Of a stretch of 35,080 nt of DNA, positions 25,452 through 31,010 are shown piece by piece (the first letter of the stretch is position 1; each line of letters starts with the position of its first letter). The stretch lies in the NCBI GenBank assembly GCA_020058225.1, contig JAGVEJ010000089.1:1-35080 (forward strand), read 5' to 3'. This DNA is from Candidatus Zixiibacteriota bacterium. GTDB lineage: Bacteria; Zixibacteria; MSB-5A5; GN15; PGXB01. The notes beneath the pieces are model-generated. The model had not been told where the DNA came from. It made no database searches and saw nothing but the letters and a program-made list of their open reading frames with translations. Both the position numbers and the translations under genes were made by a program.

Positions 25452-26063
25452 TTAAGGCCTTTTCCAATTAGTTATAATAAATTTGGCTATTCGTCTTATT
25501 TTGCCAAAGACCCCTTTGGATACGGAGCAACATAAGAGAAGCTCGGCAATCCGCTCTTTTTCTCGGTTTGCGGCCTTTTCCAATTGTGCGTATATATCCT
25601 GAGAGGGATCGAGTTTTTCCGGACTGGGTTTTTGGGCGACATAAAGCGCTCCCGCTTTCAGGCAAATTTCGGAATCCTCAAGGGTACCCTTTCTGGTATA
25701 AAAAATCACCGGGACATTTTGATATCCCGATTGAATTTGAGACAGGAGAGCCAAGCCTCCTTTTCGTGATTGACCTATCGATAAAAGGTATGAATTTAAT
25801 TTATTTTGCGCGATTGCAACTTCTTGCTGTAATGATATCATGCGCACCCGCTCTTCTGCAGAGCTCTCTCGTGTTATCGAAAAATAAAGGTCAAGGATAA
25901 AAAGGTTCGGTATTTGGCGGCGCTCCGTAATTGCCTTCTCCGCTGAAATAAAATCGACAGCCGTTATAGTATTGAAATTTTTGCCAAAAACATTTTCAAA
26001 GATTTTTAGTTCCTTGGGGTCATCATCAATAAAACAAACTGTCGGCTTGTCTATTTTATGCAT
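25452..26063 (-). CDS. Receiver-domain protein with an internal insertion
   Basis: This is a 203-residue protein. All receiver residues are present: D13-D15 (CFIDDDPKE), phosphoacceptor D58 (FILDLYF), T123 (VIFYTRKG) and K145 (YVAQKPSPEK). About 40-45 residues (60-103) are inserted just after the phosphoacceptor, where a normal receiver has a short loop; the insert looks helical (SAEERVRMISLQQEVAIAQN). The C-terminus (160-203) is a helix plus a Cys-Cys containing, basic, hydrophobic tail, not a DNA-binding domain. It is therefore a stand-alone signalling module. It is directly upstream of the MFS gene with no spacer, which hints at a joint role. No kinase is nearby. Confidence 0.82.
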   Translation of the reverse strand: MHKIDKPTVCFIDDDPKELKIFENVFGKNFNTITAVDFISAEKAITERRQIPNLFILDLYFSITRESSAEERVRMISLQQEVAIAQNKLNSYLLSIGQSRKGGLALLSQIQSGYQNVPVIFYTRKGTLEDSEICLKAGALYVAQKPSPEKLDPSQDIYAQLEKAANREKERIAELLLCCSVSKGVFGKIRRIAKFIITNWKRP

Positions 26064-26472
26064 AATAAACCATTCTTAGTCCATAAATAAATTTGCTCAG
26101 TCGTAATGAATATAATGATTTTTATATTTTGGTTTCAATTAGCAGATTAGAGAGATTAAATGGCTTATTTATTCTTCATTTTTTAGGGCTTGTGCAATTT
26201 AGAAACAATCTTAAAAAAGAGCTATTCAGCAATATTATTGATGTCGTATATAAAATTTATATAAGAATTTTGAAAAAAAGTATTAGGCAAAATGAGGGCG
26301 AGAGGGAGATAAATACACATAATCTTATGATTATCAATGAGATAGGCGATTTATGGCGGACGTTATATTTTTTACAAGTATGGCCAAAATAGTCCAAATA
26401 AAAGTTGACAAAAAAGGACTCCGCCATATATTAATTGACTTCATAATTACCAAGAGATGGTGAATTTGATAA

Positions 26473-26501
26473 TTGACATTTATGGTCGCCTCTCTTATAT
26501 G
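26473..26501 (+). promoter_or_regulatory. Promoter of the lipoprotein/L,D-transpeptidase cluster
   Basis: TTGACA (26473-26478) is full consensus; TATATG (26496-26501) lies 17 bases on, with an alternative TTATAT at 26495. Transcription would begin near 26508, leaving a long structured leader. Confidence 0.68.
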
Positions 26502-26589
26502 TATGGGAATGTGAAAGAAAATCGCCGGACAAAGACAGTTCGGGATTAGGATTAGAAAGTAGCGTAACAAGGTAACCTAATAAATCGGG

Positions 26590-26628
26590 ATGTGTGCGAA
26601 TCGACAGTTCGCGCGTATCCTTTTTTTT
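26590..26628 (+). terminator. Terminator-like hairpin in the lipoprotein leader (possible attenuator)
   Basis: ATGTGTGCGAA (26590-26600) can pair along its whole length with TTCGCGCGTAT (26608-26618), counting three G-U pairs, around a TCGACAG loop. CC and eight T residues (26621-26628) follow. This is the layout of a rho-independent terminator, placed between promoter and start codon and 35 bases before the ATG. Confidence 0.6.
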
Positions 26629-26663
26629 CGTCCCCCAATAGTGGGACAGAAAGGAATGTCAAC

Positions 26664-27254
26664 ATGTTGAAACGTTTGTCACTCGTATTTGCCGTGCTTG
26701 TACTGATGGCGATTGCGGGTTGCAGCAAACCGCCTGAGGCAGAAATGCAGGCCTCTCAGACCGCTATCGATCAGGCTCGTGCCGCTGAAGCCGAACAGTA
26801 TGTACCGGATGTATTCCGTATTGCCGCTGATACTCTGAATGCGGCCAATGCCGCCAAGCAGGAGCAGGATTCCAAGTTTGCTCTATTCCGCAGCTATGGC
26901 AAATCGAAAGAGATGTTCATCCGCGCCAAAGCTCTTGCCGACAATGCCGCAACCGAAGCGGCCGCCGAGAAAGAGCGTGTCAGAGTGCAGGTCGAGGGTT
27001 TGATTACCCAGGCCCAGGCCGCTATCGATAGCGCCAATGCCGCTCTGGCTAAGGCCCCCAAGGGCAAAGGCAACAAGGCTGAGATCGAACTGATTAAGAA
27101 CGACCTCACCACCCTTGGCGCCCAGTTTGAGGAAGCCAAGAATAATTTCACTGCGGGTAAATATCTTGTCGCCAGATCCAAAGTTGAAGCTGTTATGCAG
27201 AAAGCTAATGGCATCATCAATGAAATCACAATGGCGGCCGCTAAGAAGAAATAA
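26664..27254 (+). CDS. Alanine-rich outer-membrane lipoprotein, DUF4398-like
   Basis: This is a 196-residue protein. It has a signal peptide with lipobox AIAGC (acylated Cys20); Ser at +2 favours outer-membrane sorting. The mature part is almost entirely helical and rich in Ala, Glu, Lys and Gln (ASQTAIDQARAAEAEQYVPD, AANAAKQEQDSKFALFRSYG), as in DUF4398 proteins. It resembles a Braun-lipoprotein-like or OmpA-associated spacer but has no peptidoglycan-binding OmpA domain. AAGGA (26651-26655) eight bases before this ATG fixes the start; the frame is open 24 codons further upstream, but that stretch covers the leader hairpin. Base composition differs from neighbours (more GCC/GCT and C-ending codons), typical of a highly expressed gene. 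It leads the L,D-transpeptidase cluster. Confidence 0.85.
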   Translation: MLKRLSLVFAVLVLMAIAGCSKPPEAEMQASQTAIDQARAAEAEQYVPDVFRIAADTLNAANAAKQEQDSKFALFRSYGKSKEMFIRAKALADNAATEAAAEKERVRVQVEGLITQAQAAIDSANAALAKAPKGKGNKAEIELIKNDLTTLGAQFEEAKNNFTAGKYLVARSKVEAVMQKANGIINEITMAAAKKK

Positions 27255-27290
27255 GTCTATCTGCGGTTAGATTTTTGCACGTCAATTATT

Positions 27291-27335
27291 ACCGCGGGGA
27301 TTGTGTAAACTCAATCCCCGCGGTTGAGTTTACAC
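27291..27335 (+). promoter_or_regulatory. Two overlapping, mutually exclusive hairpins downstream of the lipoprotein gene
   Basis: Hairpin A pairs ACCGCGGGGATTG (27291-27303) with CAATCCCCGCGGT (27312-27324), 13 bp perfect. Hairpin B pairs GTGTAAACTCAA (27303-27314) with TTGAGTTTACAC (27324-27335), 12 bp perfect. They share bases, so only one can form fully. No T run follows, so this is not a standard terminator. It sits 32 bases before the L,D-transpeptidase start and may limit read-through or protect the upstream message. Confidence 0.7.
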
Positions 27336-27366
27336 CTCATTCCTGGATGACCCCCGAAGGCTCGAA

Positions 27367-28449
27367 TTGAAATTATCAGGAAAACTTAAATTATCACTAT
27401 TATTGATAACGGGCTTTATTTTATTATTTGCCGGTTGTCAGGATCCGCCGATTGGCTCGCTTGAAAGAGCCAAGTATGCCCTCAATCAGGCCGGAAAATC
27501 GGGCGCTCTACGGTATTCTGAGAAGACATACCGTGAAGCGGAAGAACTAATGAAGGCCGGATGGATGGAGATGGCACGGCAAAATGGCCGTTTTGCCCCC
27601 TTCCGTGACTATAAAGCCGCTGACTCAATCTTGAATTTGGCTATTACAACCGCACAGAAGGCAACTACCGATGCGCAAACGCAAATTCAGAATCTTCAGG
27701 CCTTAACAAAAGCTGAGAGAGAGGAATTATATAATGATTTGCTGGAATGGCGCGAGGCCCTCAACGGGGCCCTGACAAAATTTCGGGCCGAACATTATTG
27801 GAATTCCGGGGAATTGGCGTATAAGACAAGTGAGAAGCTGATGATGAATGGGGAATATGAGGAAGCCCGAGAGGTTATTGCTGAGGGAAAAGAATCGTTG
27901 AAAAAAATGGGAGCAATACTCGCCGACTATGACAATGATGAAGCCACTAAAATTCATATTTGGAGAAGATGGGTCAAGGAGACATTGGATGATTCGAAAA
28001 ATTCCGGCGGTTATGCGGTTATAGTGGACAAATCAAAACATAAAACTTATCTTATTCAAGCCGGTAAAGTGATTCACACTTATGATTGTGATTTGGGATA
28101 TAATTCGGCGCATCAAAAAATGTTTTCCGGCGACGGCGCCACACCCGAAGGAAAATATATTGTATCCGAAGTCAAGACCAACGGACGAAGCAAGTATTAT
28201 AAGGCTTTGTTGATTAACTACCCCAATGCAACGGATAAAAAGCGATTTCAGGAAAACAAATCGCGGGGAATCATTTCCGGGCGAGCCCGAATCGGCGGGC
28301 TTATTGAAATTCATGGCGAGGGCGGCCGAGGACGAGATTGGACCGAGGGTTGTATCGCTCTTACCAACAAAGAAATGGATCATATAACAAAATATATCGG
28401 CATTGGAACTCCGATAACCATAGTCCGACGTTCCAATAATTGGCCATGA
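27367..28449 (+). CDS. Lipoprotein L,D-transpeptidase (YkuD family)
   Basis: This is a 360-residue protein starting at TTG, with GAAGG (27356-27360) six bases upstream. The signal peptide ends in lipobox LFAGC (Cys24, Gln at +2). Residues ~30-130 are helical and resemble the lipoprotein encoded just upstream (LERAKYALNQAGKSGALRYS, FAPFRDYKAADSILNLA), so it carries a DUF4398-like spacer. The YkuD domain (~215-355) begins AVIVDKSKHKTYLIQAGKVI and carries the active-site H316 and C329 in HGEGGRGRDWTEGCIALTN. Such enzymes form 3-3 peptidoglycan cross-links or attach proteins to peptidoglycan in the periplasm. The stop overlaps the next start (ATGA). Confidence 0.9.
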   Translation: MKLSGKLKLSLLLITGFILLFAGCQDPPIGSLERAKYALNQAGKSGALRYSEKTYREAEELMKAGWMEMARQNGRFAPFRDYKAADSILNLAITTAQKATTDAQTQIQNLQALTKAEREELYNDLLEWREALNGALTKFRAEHYWNSGELAYKTSEKLMMNGEYEEAREVIAEGKESLKKMGAILADYDNDEATKIHIWRRWVKETLDDSKNSGGYAVIVDKSKHKTYLIQAGKVIHTYDCDLGYNSAHQKMFSGDGATPEGKYIVSEVKTNGRSKYYKALLINYPNATDKKRFQENKSRGIISGRARIGGLIEIHGEGGRGRDWTEGCIALTNKEMDHITKYIGIGTPITIVRRSNNWP

Positions 28450-29096
28450 AAAAAATTGTGTTTTTCGTAGTTCTGCCGCTTCTATTAATAATTGTGGCGT
28501 TGTCGGTTTATGTATTAAAAGGCGGAAGAGATATTGATACGCAGGAGGCGTTCTCTGTTCCGATAGATTCTGTACTACATGAACTTCCGACTGATTCGAA
28601 ACTTGCCAAGAAGGAAGTGCAGAAAGTCAAAAAGGCTCTGTCGGCTTTGAAGCCGGCCAAACCATACATTGTTATAGATACTCACGCCAATAGGATTTTT
28701 CTTAGGATTGAAGATTCTATATTGCTTGAAGCCACTTGTTCCGCCGGCTCAGGCGGTGAATTTATTGACAGTACCACCGGCCGGAAATGGGTATTTAATA
28801 CGCCTCGCGGCATATTCAAGGTGGATAGCAAAATTCCTCACCCATGGTGGAGGAAGCCGGATTGGGCTTTTCTTGAAGAGGGAGAACAGATTCCCAATGA
28901 CGATGGTGAGCGACTCGACCCCAATATGATGGGAGACTTTGCTCTTGGCTTTGGAGATGGGTTCTTCATTCACGGCACTATTTATGAAAGACTACTCGGG
29001 GTAAGCGTAACTCACGGGTGTGTTCGAGTCGGCTCGGATGATTTAGAAGTTTTATACAATAAGACTCCAATGGGGACTTATGTTTATATATTCTAA
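28446..29096 (+). CDS. Membrane-anchored L,D-transpeptidase (YkuD family)
   Basis: This is a 216-residue protein with an N-terminal signal anchor (IVFFVVLPLLLIIVALSVYV) and no lipobox Cys. Residues ~73-216 form a compact YkuD domain: PYIVIDTHANRIFLRIEDSI, then FNTPRGIFKVDSK, then active-site H176, H190 and C192 in HGTIYERLLGVSVTHGCVRV. This lies in the periplasm. ATG 28446 overlaps the previous stop by 4 bases and is preferred over an upstream in-frame TTG (28440). The PDWAFLEEGEQIPNDDGERL insertion before the catalytic part is typical of the ErfK/YbiS-like branch. It probably works with the preceding transpeptidase on the same envelope layer. Confidence 0.92.
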   Translation: MKKIVFFVVLPLLLIIVALSVYVLKGGRDIDTQEAFSVPIDSVLHELPTDSKLAKKEVQKVKKALSALKPAKPYIVIDTHANRIFLRIEDSILLEATCSAGSGGEFIDSTTGRKWVFNTPRGIFKVDSKIPHPWWRKPDWAFLEEGEQIPNDDGERLDPNMMGDFALGFGDGFFIHGTIYERLLGVSVTHGCVRVGSDDLEVLYNKTPMGTYVYIF

Positions 29097-29877
29097 GGCG
29101 AAAAGAATTATTGCCGATGCGGGGAAGATTGTCGCTATTCTCATGGCCGGGATTATCCTAATCATCGGAATTAATGCATGCAAGGACAAAAAAGAACCGC
29201 CGGCAAAACAAGGCCGTATCGAAACCAAAAAATGGGATTTCAAAAGCGAGAATTTTGACTTTGCTTTGGCTCAAGCGGAATTGCAACTCGCCGGACTTAA
29301 AAAACCATACCTTGTACTTGATTTTTCCAAGAATAAGCTGATTCTAAAATTAAACGGCGTGGCGGTTTGGGATGTCCCGATGGAAATAACCGCCGATGAA
29401 TCTGATTCCCCCGAAGATTTCACCGAGCGATTTTTCAGCGATAATAATCTTTTGGTAAGACCTCTATTTGATAAGCATCTTTTCGCCGGCAAAGGACAAA
29501 GCTCGGATTCTGTTCTTAAGATAATCAGTGGTGTAGTCAGGGCAAGTGTGGAACTAATGCAACGCGAAGTGCCCGAGAGATTTCAACTTGAATGGGAAAA
29601 CGGCCTTCTAATTGAATTTCGTACAGAAATAATGGGCCAACCAAAATCCAAATTTAAAAATACACTGGTTGAATTACGCCGAACCCTGCAACGCCCATTT
29701 GGAGAATCGGCTATGGTAGTTCGTTTGGATTCCAAACATGCTATTACGCTTTATCGGGTGGCTGAACGAGGCCTGCCGACTTTGATCTACCCGCCTAAAT
29801 ATGGCGGCATTCTCGAGAATATCACCCCATCAAAAGAAGCAAATCAGAAACTGGAACGTAAGGCTTCGCGTAAATAG
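29080..29877 (+). CDS. Membrane-anchored protein related to the L,D-transpeptidases but lacking the active site
   Basis: This 265-residue protein overlaps the previous gene by 17 bases. The N-terminal hydrophobic helix (~17-32) ends at Cys34 (GINACKD), which could be a weak lipobox or simply follow the membrane anchor. Residues ~70-100 (GLKKPYLVLDFSKNKLILKL, NGVAVWDVPM) line up with the first strands of the YkuD domain in the preceding gene (AKPYIVIDTHANRIFLRIED). No H...(S/T)HGC active site follows, and the rest (DSVLKIISGVVRASVELMQR...) is unlike YkuD. I read it as a degenerate or divergent paralogue acting as a partner or regulator. I do not recognise a named family. Confidence 0.75.
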   Translation: MFIYSKAKRIIADAGKIVAILMAGIILIIGINACKDKKEPPAKQGRIETKKWDFKSENFDFALAQAELQLAGLKKPYLVLDFSKNKLILKLNGVAVWDVPMEITADESDSPEDFTERFFSDNNLLVRPLFDKHLFAGKGQSSDSVLKIISGVVRASVELMQREVPERFQLEWENGLLIEFRTEIMGQPKSKFKNTLVELRRTLQRPFGESAMVVRLDSKHAITLYRVAERGLPTLIYPPKYGGILENITPSKEANQKLERKASRK

Positions 29878-29984
29878 GAATTTGATCTCTCCTCGAAAAT
29901 TCTGTACTGAAATTTCCCAAATTTGCATCGCCTCAAACCAATTTTCTTGCTTTAGCGCATTGTATTTCGTTTGATAATCATAGG

Positions 29985-31010
29985 ATGTTTTATGTTTTTC
30001 TCGCACTTCTTTCGGCCGCTTTATTCGGGGCCGCAACTCCGCTGAGTAAGGCGCTTCTAGCGTCATTCAGCGCTTTTCAGCTCGCTGGGCTTCTCTATAT
30101 TGGTGCGGCCTTAGGTGTTGCCGTTGTAGCCTTCAAAAAGGGCCAAACACAGCCTTGGCGCATGGACAGGAAAAACATGGTTCGACTGTCAGGTGCAATA
30201 CTGTTCGGCGGAGTCATGGCACCGTTGTTTCTCCTACTCAGCCTCAAAGTAGCATTGGCAGCCTCAGTATCTCTTTGGCTTCCACTCGAACTGGTGGTCA
30301 CAGCCATTTTGGGTCGCCTACTCTTTCGAGATCATTTGGGAGTGTTCGGCTGGCTGGGCATGCTCGGAGTCGTAGCGGCCAGTGTTCTGCTCAGTGTGGG
30401 CGAGGGTACAGCCGGAATCAAGGCCGGGCTTCTTGTCATGATTGCCTGCGTTTGCTGGGGATTTGATAATAACTTCACTGCCCTTATCGATGGCATAACG
30501 CCTGCTCAGAGCACATTCTGGAAGGGATTGGTGGCCGGGGTCATCAACCTTGGAGTCGGTTTATCAACACAGGATTTCGGTGGAACGATGGCGACGACTG
30601 CCGGAGCGCTGGGAGTCGGTATAGTTTCATACGGAGCAAGCATTTTACTTTACATTACCGCCGCCCAAAACATTGGTGCGGCTCGAGGCCAGATATTTTT
30701 CGCAAGCAGTCCGTTTTTCGGAGTTATACTCGCCGCGGTTTTCCTCGGCGAAACCATTTCCACAATACAGCTGGTGGCTGTGGCCGGCCTCAGTGTTTCT
30801 CTTGTGATGGTTTTCCGCGATAGACACGACCACCAACATCTGCACGAGGAATTGGATCATGAACATAGCCATCGGCATGACGATGAACATCACGATCATG
30901 TACAGCCGGAAGACCATAGGACGAATCGCCACACTCATCGACACCGCCACATCCCGATCGCGCATACGCATCCCCATTGGCCAGATTTGCACCATCGACA
31001 CAACCACTGA
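29985..31010 (+). CDS. EamA/DMT-family transporter with histidine-rich C-terminal tail
   Basis: This is a 341-residue protein. About ten hydrophobic helices (residues ~1-275) form two EamA repeats: LFGAATPLSKALLASFSAFQ at the start, and WGFDNNFTALIDGITPAQST in the second half. The last 64 residues (278-341) contain 23 histidines with many Asp/Glu, a probable metal-binding tail, ending in HTHPHWPDLHHRHNH. DMT proteins export or import small metabolites; the tail suggests that transport is linked to a divalent metal such as Ni, Co or Zn, or senses it. Codon choice looks richer in G+C than flanking genes and it lies next to a repeat, so recent acquisition is plausible. AGG is close before the ATG. 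Confidence 0.88.
   Translation: MFYVFLALLSAALFGAATPLSKALLASFSAFQLAGLLYIGAALGVAVVAFKKGQTQPWRMDRKNMVRLSGAILFGGVMAPLFLLLSLKVALAASVSLWLPLELVVTAILGRLLFRDHLGVFGWLGMLGVVAASVLLSVGEGTAGIKAGLLVMIACVCWGFDNNFTALIDGITPAQSTFWKGLVAGVINLGVGLSTQDFGGTMATTAGALGVGIVSYGASILLYITAAQNIGAARGQIFFASSPFFGVILAAVFLGETISTIQLVAVAGLSVSLVMVFRDRHDHQHLHEELDHEHSHRHDDEHHDHVQPEDHRTNRHTHRHRHIPIAHTHPHWPDLHHRHNH

Follow-up and report, generated by a model that had tools for sequence, protein, structure and literature searches.

A conserved Zixiibacteriota operon of a lipoprotein and three YkuD-fold proteins, possibly for a covalent outer membrane-peptidoglycan tether

The nearest known system to the one described here is that of Escherichia coli, which comprises the outer-membrane lipoprotein Lpp, the attaching-type YkuD enzymes LdtA, LdtB and LdtC and a detaching YkuD-fold hydrolase, DpaA, which detaches Braun's lipoprotein from peptidoglycan. 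The present analysis concerns a four-gene operon (g1 to g4, encoding P0001 to P0004) on contig JAGVEJ010000089.1 of Candidatus Zixiibacteriota bacterium (assembly GCA_020058225.1), of which the whole stretch of 35,080 nucleotides analysed is called the window. Here too a lipoprotein, an enzyme of apparently attaching type and a hydrolase of apparently detaching type occur together, and the proposal, to which even chances are given, is that this is an attach-and-detach operon for a covalent outer membrane-peptidoglycan tether in bacteria without Lpp. The two systems differ in several ways. The E. coli genes are dispersed in the stretches examined, with lpp adjoining ldtE; Lpp is unrelated to g1 as judged by PF04728; E. 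coli DpaA has no DUF4398 domain, unlike g2; there is no counterpart of g4, and we know of no such RNA leader in E. coli. What is new in comparison with the Lpp kind is an unrelated lipoprotein, the presence of all components in one operon, a pseudo-enzyme and a leader RNA. The features are as follows.

26582-26666, + strand: structured leader RNA of g1 with a long hairpin and a U8 tract; covariance model score 66.3 bits
26664-27254, + strand: g1, helical lipoprotein with a DUF4398-like N-terminal half; 196 amino acids, lipobox MAIAGC
27367-28449, + strand: g2, DUF4398-fold helical domain followed by a YkuD domain of predicted DpaA/LD-carboxypeptidase type; 360 amino acids, TTG start, lipobox LLFAGC
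28446-29096, + strand: g3, predicted membrane-anchored L,D-transpeptidase, HG...THGCVR; 216 amino acids, PF03734 at 67.4 bits
29080-29877, + strand: g4, catalytically dead protein of predicted YkuD fold with a lipobox-like N-terminus (INAC); 265 amino acids

The four open reading frames (ORFs) lie where a preliminary description of this DNA had placed them and overlap as it had claimed, g2 with g3 by 4 bases (28446-28449) and g3 with g4 by 17 bases (29080-29096). The N-termini of g1 and g2 are signal peptides terminating in a lipobox, that of g3 is a membrane anchor without a cysteine, and the lipobox-like INAC of g4 is weaker than the lipoboxes of g1 and g2. The whole genome contains two matches to YkuD (PF03734), both inside this cluster.

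It is clear that the four genes are kept as a block. All four are found together in 8 of the 15 genomes of the same GTDB family; in the other 7 neither g1, g2, g4 nor any YkuD protein was found, an absence that is only partly tested as 6 of these genomes are less than 90% complete. Joint presence in the same 8 genomes excludes chance. Across the phylum, YkuD is present in 53 of 132 Zixiibacteriota genomes and the g4 profile matches 42. The surroundings of 41 g4-matching Zixiibacteriota loci other than the window were compared, and the order g1-g2-g3-g4 on one strand was seen in 37; three of the exceptions are truncated by contig ends (L081, L082 and L135) and the fourth, L142, is a fusion that is considered below. 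When named genomes were scanned with the g3 alignment, 195 relatives were obtained, of which the best 80 by similarity to Zixiibacteriota g3 were kept; these are not a survey of each phylum, and they share contigs with the Zixiibacteriota regions and overlap them in part. The order g1-g2-g3-g4 ends 68 of these 80 loci; 11 of the remaining 12 start with g2 or g3 near a contig end, and the twelfth (L199) has a g2 piece of only 53 residues and stops just past g3. Here, as for the per-residue counts, the tree and the lipobox, tail, K135 and leader sets below, sequences distinct in their last 150 residues were used.

The phylum names of these best 80 of 195 are those of the deposited record titles: Zixibacteria/Zixiibacteriota (21), Aminicenantes (12), Acidobacteria/Acidobacteriota (9), Nitrospirae/Nitrospirota/Nitrospira (8), Syntrophales/Syntrophaceae (3), Proteobacteria (3), Desulfobacterales/-aceae (2), Deltaproteobacteria (2), Calditrichaeota (2), Krumholzibacteriia (2), one each of Caldithrix, Eisenbacteria, Gemmatimonadetes, Vicinamibacteria, Gammaproteobacteria, Ignavibacterium and Clostridiales, and 9 unspecified; the names Ignavibacterium (L144), Clostridiales (L220) and Gammaproteobacteria (L185) are doubtful. 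No neighbour gene of the window has relatives in more than 4 of the fetched regions, and the most frequent flank family occurs in 17 of the 118 loci that have flanks. The order is thus kept while the flanks vary, so that the genes, which are not scattered in relatives, form a dedicated conserved cluster as had been suggested. Tandem duplications were seen in a Deltaproteobacteria record, with an extra g1 (L208:3294-7094), and in a Nitrospirota record, with an extra g1-g2 pair (L223:2-5592). Some Zixiibacteriota genomes also have separate YkuD matches in much longer frames of 558-594 codons (G098:C117, G108:C54, G008:C31 and G011:C26).

The sequence of g3 is that of a YkuD L,D-transpeptidase. 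It matches PF03734 with 67.4 bits against a cut-off of 23.4, and its motif in the window, FIHGT...VTHGCVR, has the HG...[ST]HGC pattern of these enzymes. The arginine two residues past the catalytic cysteine (Cys+2), given in the consulted part of PMC8263019 as the transpeptidase signature, is present in all of the 96 distinct g3 sequences, each of which reads HGC[VI]R. E. coli L,D-transpeptidase models match 19 of the 19 g3 members scanned, the L,D-transpeptidase 4LZH is the top match among PDB sequences, and a WWRKPDWAF stretch is specific to the family. Judged from its sequence, g3 is of the transpeptidase kind; its earlier description as membrane-anchored with an intact HG...THGC site is borne out.

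The protein encoded before it, g2, had been described as the first transpeptidase, with a lipobox and an N-terminal helical part resembling g1. The lipobox and the resemblance are real (BLASTP to g1, expectation value (E) 3e-10), and the active-site motif is intact (EIHG...DWTEGCIA), but the transpeptidase identity is not supported. The NCBIfam model of DpaA, the Lpp-detaching amidase, matches 64 of 66 g2 proteins at E <= 1e-3. Cys+2 of g2 (A331 in the window) is Ala in 72, Ser in 10, Gly in 8 and Met in 3 of the 93 sequences scored, one fragment of 53 residues being left out, and it is never Arg; replacement of this transpeptidase arginine by alanine is also reported for DpaA itself in parts of PMC10653827 and PMC8263019. 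Two DpaA residues whose mutation (K83A, Y109A) abolishes or nearly abolishes activity, according to a section of PMC10653827, are retained. Position K251, which corresponds to K83, holds Lys in 92 of 93, the other being a gap, and Y277, which corresponds to Y109, is Tyr in 67 and Phe in 25, again 92 of 93. One g2 protein alignment took 65 of 77 rows, cut-off or duplicate rows being left out.

A tree of 64 domains, including a random 29 each of g2 and g3, separates the two in the same manner: E. coli DpaA falls with g2, and LdtA to LdtE with g3 only (split 99/97). The solved sequences nearest to the g2 profile are DpaA, Bd1075, Csd6 and Pgp2, and the first Foldseek match of the g2 AlphaFold2 model, which has a mean predicted local distance difference test score (pLDDT) of 91.1, is DpaA (PDB 8IKR). 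From DpaA g2 differs in having an extra helical domain of DUF4398 fold, a lengthened loop ahead of the cysteine, a glutamate at the M133 position and no Y131. The preliminary reading, in which two transpeptidases both attach the lipoprotein and the dead relative is a regulator, could appeal to the scores of g2 and g3, both above the YkuD cut-off, and to the catalytic cysteine motif kept in the sequences of both that were scored. It is highly improbable given that g2 carries the signature of DpaA and the LD-carboxypeptidases, in no case with the transpeptidase arginine, and that the E. coli transpeptidases group with g3 only; g2 was rejected as a second transpeptidase on its active-site residues and its nearest relatives. 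By these residues g2 appears to be of the DpaA-type hydrolase kind, and, g3 being transpeptidase-type, the pair looks like one detaching and one attaching enzyme.

The helical domain of g2 (residues 26-130) has the fold of the DUF4398 protein PA2901 (PDB 4FM3), with a VIA-align Z score of 13.1 and a root mean square deviation (rmsd) of 2.3 over 96 of 96 residues; 4FM3 is itself a 96-residue chain without a YkuD domain. The DUF4398 model (PF14346) matches 14 of 33 g1 proteins at E <= 1e-3, and P0001 and P0002, with 17.6 and 15.8 bits, do not reach its cut-off of 27.9 bits. One g1 alignment took 32 of 63 g1 rows.

A lipobox is present in 79 of the 79 g1 homologues scored, as against 51 of 86 in g2, 3 of 93 in g3 and 32 of 90 in g4, rows beginning at a locus edge having been dropped. 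Among the four proteins, then, only g1 is always lipidated; varied anchoring of the enzymes together with constant lipidation of g1 would suit a location of the enzymes at the inner membrane and of the lipoprotein in the outer membrane. The C-terminal lysines described previously are a feature of the family. The last six residues of g1 are 41% lysine compared to 12% elsewhere, and 68 of 85 have lysine among their final three residues, where the internal composition would predict 0.33, compared with 0 of 96 for g3, 26 of 92 for g2 and 14 of 89 for g4. In the middle of the protein there is an almost invariant loop, APxGKG, whose lysine K135 is present in 84 of 86; this motif was not found in g2 proteins. 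Known attachment points elsewhere are C-terminal Lys-Lys, Lys-Thr and internal lysines (PMC12729407, in part), and the Coxiella protein LimB27, from the same portion of that review, gives a precedent for tethering of a lipoprotein by an internal lysine. Attachment of g1 could be at the loop lysine K135 or at the C-terminal lysines. For the terminal AAAKKK lysines this role is uncertain, as the last residue is lysine in only 48 of 85 while the internal K135 is kept in 84 of 86.

With its lipobox and available lysine, g1 has the sequence characters of an Lpp-like tether. It was rejected as a true Lpp, since it scores 19.7 bits with NF040598 against a cut-off of 43 bits and PF04728 is found in 0 of 132 Zixiibacteriota genomes by a search that was positive in the E. 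coli control. Six OmpA-type domains are encoded in this genome, so other, non-covalent links exist.

Alternatively, g1 may not be a substrate but an outer-membrane adaptor or activator which, reaching across the periplasm as lipoproteins that activate other wall enzymes do, recruits g3/g4 for 3-3 cross-linking and g2 for stem-peptide trimming, or turns these enzymes on. The g1-like helical domain inside g2 would fit a docking module, the terminal lysine of g1 is not strictly conserved, and the longest structural alignments of g2 in VIA-align are with the LD-carboxypeptidases Csd6, Pgp2 and Bd1075 (128-129 residues, 24-28% identity), the transpeptidases among the matches listed aligning over about 102-119 residues with 16-24% identity. 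Against this, the tryptophan of the LD-carboxypeptidase D-Ala pocket (Csd6 W158, at the DpaA M133 position) is glutamate in 90 of 93 g2 sequences, making a similar pocket unlikely; the lysine tail is far above composition and the K135 loop is near-invariant. This possibility is considered unlikely.

The fourth protein had been described as keeping the opening YkuD strands without the histidine and cysteine, and both parts hold. BLASTP aligns g4 to g3 over 39 columns (E 8e-4), and hhalign aligns P0003 65-216 with P0004 68-237 at a probability of 93% (E 3.5e-7), a profile resemblance that runs from the first strand through the C-terminus. No catalytic His/Cys motif occurs within the g4 domain in any of 91 distinct proteins; two string matches lie outside it in the N-terminal part, one being a lipobox and the other in an upstream extension of the ORF. 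Neither Pfam nor NCBIfam gave a convincing family, and the g4 sequence profile found no YkuD chain in the PDB (best E 0.31, an unrelated protein). The AlphaFold2 model (mean pLDDT 86.4, predicted template-modelling (TM) score 0.70) gave a best Foldseek E of 3.2e-5 with TM-scores near 0.3, and VIA-align Z scores of 6.6-8.5, near the level rated middling by the tool, over 93-108 residues with an rmsd of 2.8-4.2; the top Z of 8.5 covers 96 residues at 2.8 Å. The match is trusted because all 50 Foldseek and all 50 VIA-align rows among the matches listed are YkuD-fold proteins and the sequence profiles agree. The predicted structure thus resembles L,D-transpeptidases and is not unrelated to YkuD; the probable YkuD origin of g4 rests on profile-profile and fold comparison.

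In Zixiibacteriota g4 has invariant or near-invariant residues of its own (H133, D143, Q161, R162, P165 and G186), which indicates that it is maintained and not decaying. One g4 protein alignment took 72 of 73 rows, cut-off or duplicate rows being left out. The g4 proteins of loci outside Zixiibacteriota (e.g. L189, L213, L219) differ considerably in the middle from the Zixiibacteriota form but share its first and last YkuD strands. The best indication that g4 and g3 act together comes from L142:5514-6572 (- strand), where the two form a single ORF of 352 residues with g1 beside it. The g4 membrane segment is missing from the second half of this ORF, which speaks for a real fusion rather than a lost stop codon. 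The genome (G124) is 100% complete by its table and has a single YkuD match; g2 is absent at the locus, which is likewise the best indication that it is the dispensable member.

This locus also bears on a further explanation, that of wall remodelling without any protein tether, in which g3 would make 3-3 cross-links, g2 would trim stems, g4 would bind peptidoglycan and g1 would be merely a co-expressed structural lipoprotein. Such activities are known for both enzyme types in other bacteria, as parts of PMC12729407 and PMC10653827 relate, but it would leave unexplained both the first place that a lipoprotein with a conserved lysine loop retains in the operon across records and the persistence of g1 beside the g3-g4 fusion after loss of g2. 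It is accordingly regarded as very unlikely.

A dedicated, covarying leader RNA precedes g1. Its hairpin and U tract lie ahead of the g1 ribosome-binding site; the nearest sizeable gene upstream (25452-26063) runs along the - strand, which leaves no obvious + strand transcript for such a structure to terminate. In Zixiibacteriota relatives the apical loop (typically GCCGG) complements bases just before the ribosome-binding site (typically CCGGC), allowing a pseudoknot; the window leader has a local hairpin in its place, and close relatives also have no pseudoknot. From 76 leaders extracted, 27 were picked by eye and 24 aligned. In these 24 the structure including the pseudoknot is 86.9% paired, compared with at most 53.7% for slid versions, 14 of 19 pairs have double-sided changes, and the covariation score was reached neither by the slid controls nor by any of 500 shuffles, which ignore relatedness. 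In a wider test without picking, which took every leader that had a T-run and a hairpin that could be scored (35 in all), the loop-to-downstream helix score had a mean of 12.1, against 9.7 +/- 0.4 (maximum 10.7) for mismatched partners in 300 permutations.

The covariance model has one strong site, beside g1, in each of the 8 operon-bearing family genomes (E <= 1.7e-12; its training set includes the window and 6 of these 8 sites) and none in the 7 others, the next best site across the 15 genomes having E 0.014. A search of 26000-30100 with Rfam gave one match, at E 0.95, which was taken as chance; no Rfam family was found in the window. Examples of the leader in other Zixiibacteriota are given here.

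L148:2449-2534: leader
L152:3269-3355: leader

Further matches to the model were also seen: another strong copy some 160 bases ahead of the g1 leader in L148 (L148:2210-2290, E 3.5e-9), a weaker one at L152:3026-3113 (E 0.012) and one away from the operon (L160:9940-10029, E 1.8e-4). The leader region of the window also has GTAACAAGGTAACC at 26543-26580, which we take to be a string from the 3' end of 16S rRNA; it is not in the other 75 leaders extracted and is probably there by chance.

Taken as an attach-and-detach operon, the locus would work as follows. The tether would be g1, its lipid end in the outer membrane and a lysine, in the loop (K135) or at the C-terminus, joined to meso-diaminopimelate of the stem peptide. 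The bond between g1 and peptidoglycan would be formed by g3, anchored in the inner membrane, with g4, a dead copy of the same fold, as its partner or specificity subunit. When the envelope is remodelled g2, through its g1-like helical domain and DpaA-type hydrolase domain, may cut the g1 bond, and the structured leader may control the amount of g1 that is made, as an attenuator, a translational switch or a stabiliser. A fuller version is less likely: that a complete tether cassette, with the lipoprotein, its attaching enzyme, a pseudo-enzyme subunit dedicated to that enzyme and the detaching enzyme, is carried as a unit by diderm bacteria of many lineages that have no Lpp, with g1 attached via the internal GKG-loop lysine and not at its end and, in Zixiibacteriota, its synthesis set by a pseudoknot leader RNA.

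Several observations weigh against the tether proposal. P0002 scores only 31.4 bits against the NF040599 equivalog cut-off of 365 bits. In the structural alignments of g2 the top Z belongs to transpeptidases (15.6, LD-carboxypeptidases reaching 13.2-14.8) and the longest alignments to LD-carboxypeptidases, so that fold alone does not decide its type and the residues do. Two residues of the DpaA cleft are not kept; the position of Y131, which lies in loop L3 of DpaA and whose mutant Y131A keeps 4% activity, is Leu in 65 of 93 g2 sequences, Tyr being outside the eight commonest residues listed, and the K130 position is mostly Gly. In the tree the DpaA and LdtD branches are very long, with the attendant risk of long-branch artefacts. 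The lipobox counts leave the membrane of g2 and g4 uncertain, and the last residue of g1 is inconstant. The L142 locus suggests that detachment is not always needed, and with 90 of 132 Zixiibacteriota genomes lacking a g4 match the system is dispensable.

Further features lie around and between the genes.

26405-26432, + strand: match to a sigma-70-like promoter, TTGACA-16-TATATT, ahead of g1, with 11 of the 12 consensus positions
27291-27335, + strand: two inverted repeats in the g1-g2 gap, arms of 16 and 12 nucleotides, mutually exclusive; fold z -3.3

Promoter-type sites number 8 in the region compared to 7.3 +/- 3.1 in shuffles, so the first of these is a consensus match only. Strong folds in the g1-g2 gap recur among Zixiibacteriota, and the conserved hairpin is missing from most loci outside them; the hairpin was rejected as a general sign of surplus g1 expression, z being below -2 in 37 of 69 gaps scored. 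The gene after the operon (29985-31010) encodes a membrane transporter-like protein with a C-terminus very rich in histidine.

No description of this system was found among the listed papers on inactive YkuD/L,D-transpeptidases, Zixibacteria, Nitrospir-, DUF4398 or DpaA gene clusters, most subscription journals not being covered, and the main text of an L,D-transpeptidase review (PMC12729407) does not contain pseudoenzyme, Nitrospir or Acidobacter. If the fuller version of the proposal is true, the cassette would provide DpaA-like enzymes with the substrate that is missing for them where Lpp does not occur. The conserved operon, in which a DpaA-like enzyme is encoded together with a lipoprotein and an enzyme of attaching type, names a candidate substrate and opens this question to a direct test. 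The YkuD family would also gain a conserved pseudo-enzyme, and a structured RNA would join the means by which a tether protein is controlled.

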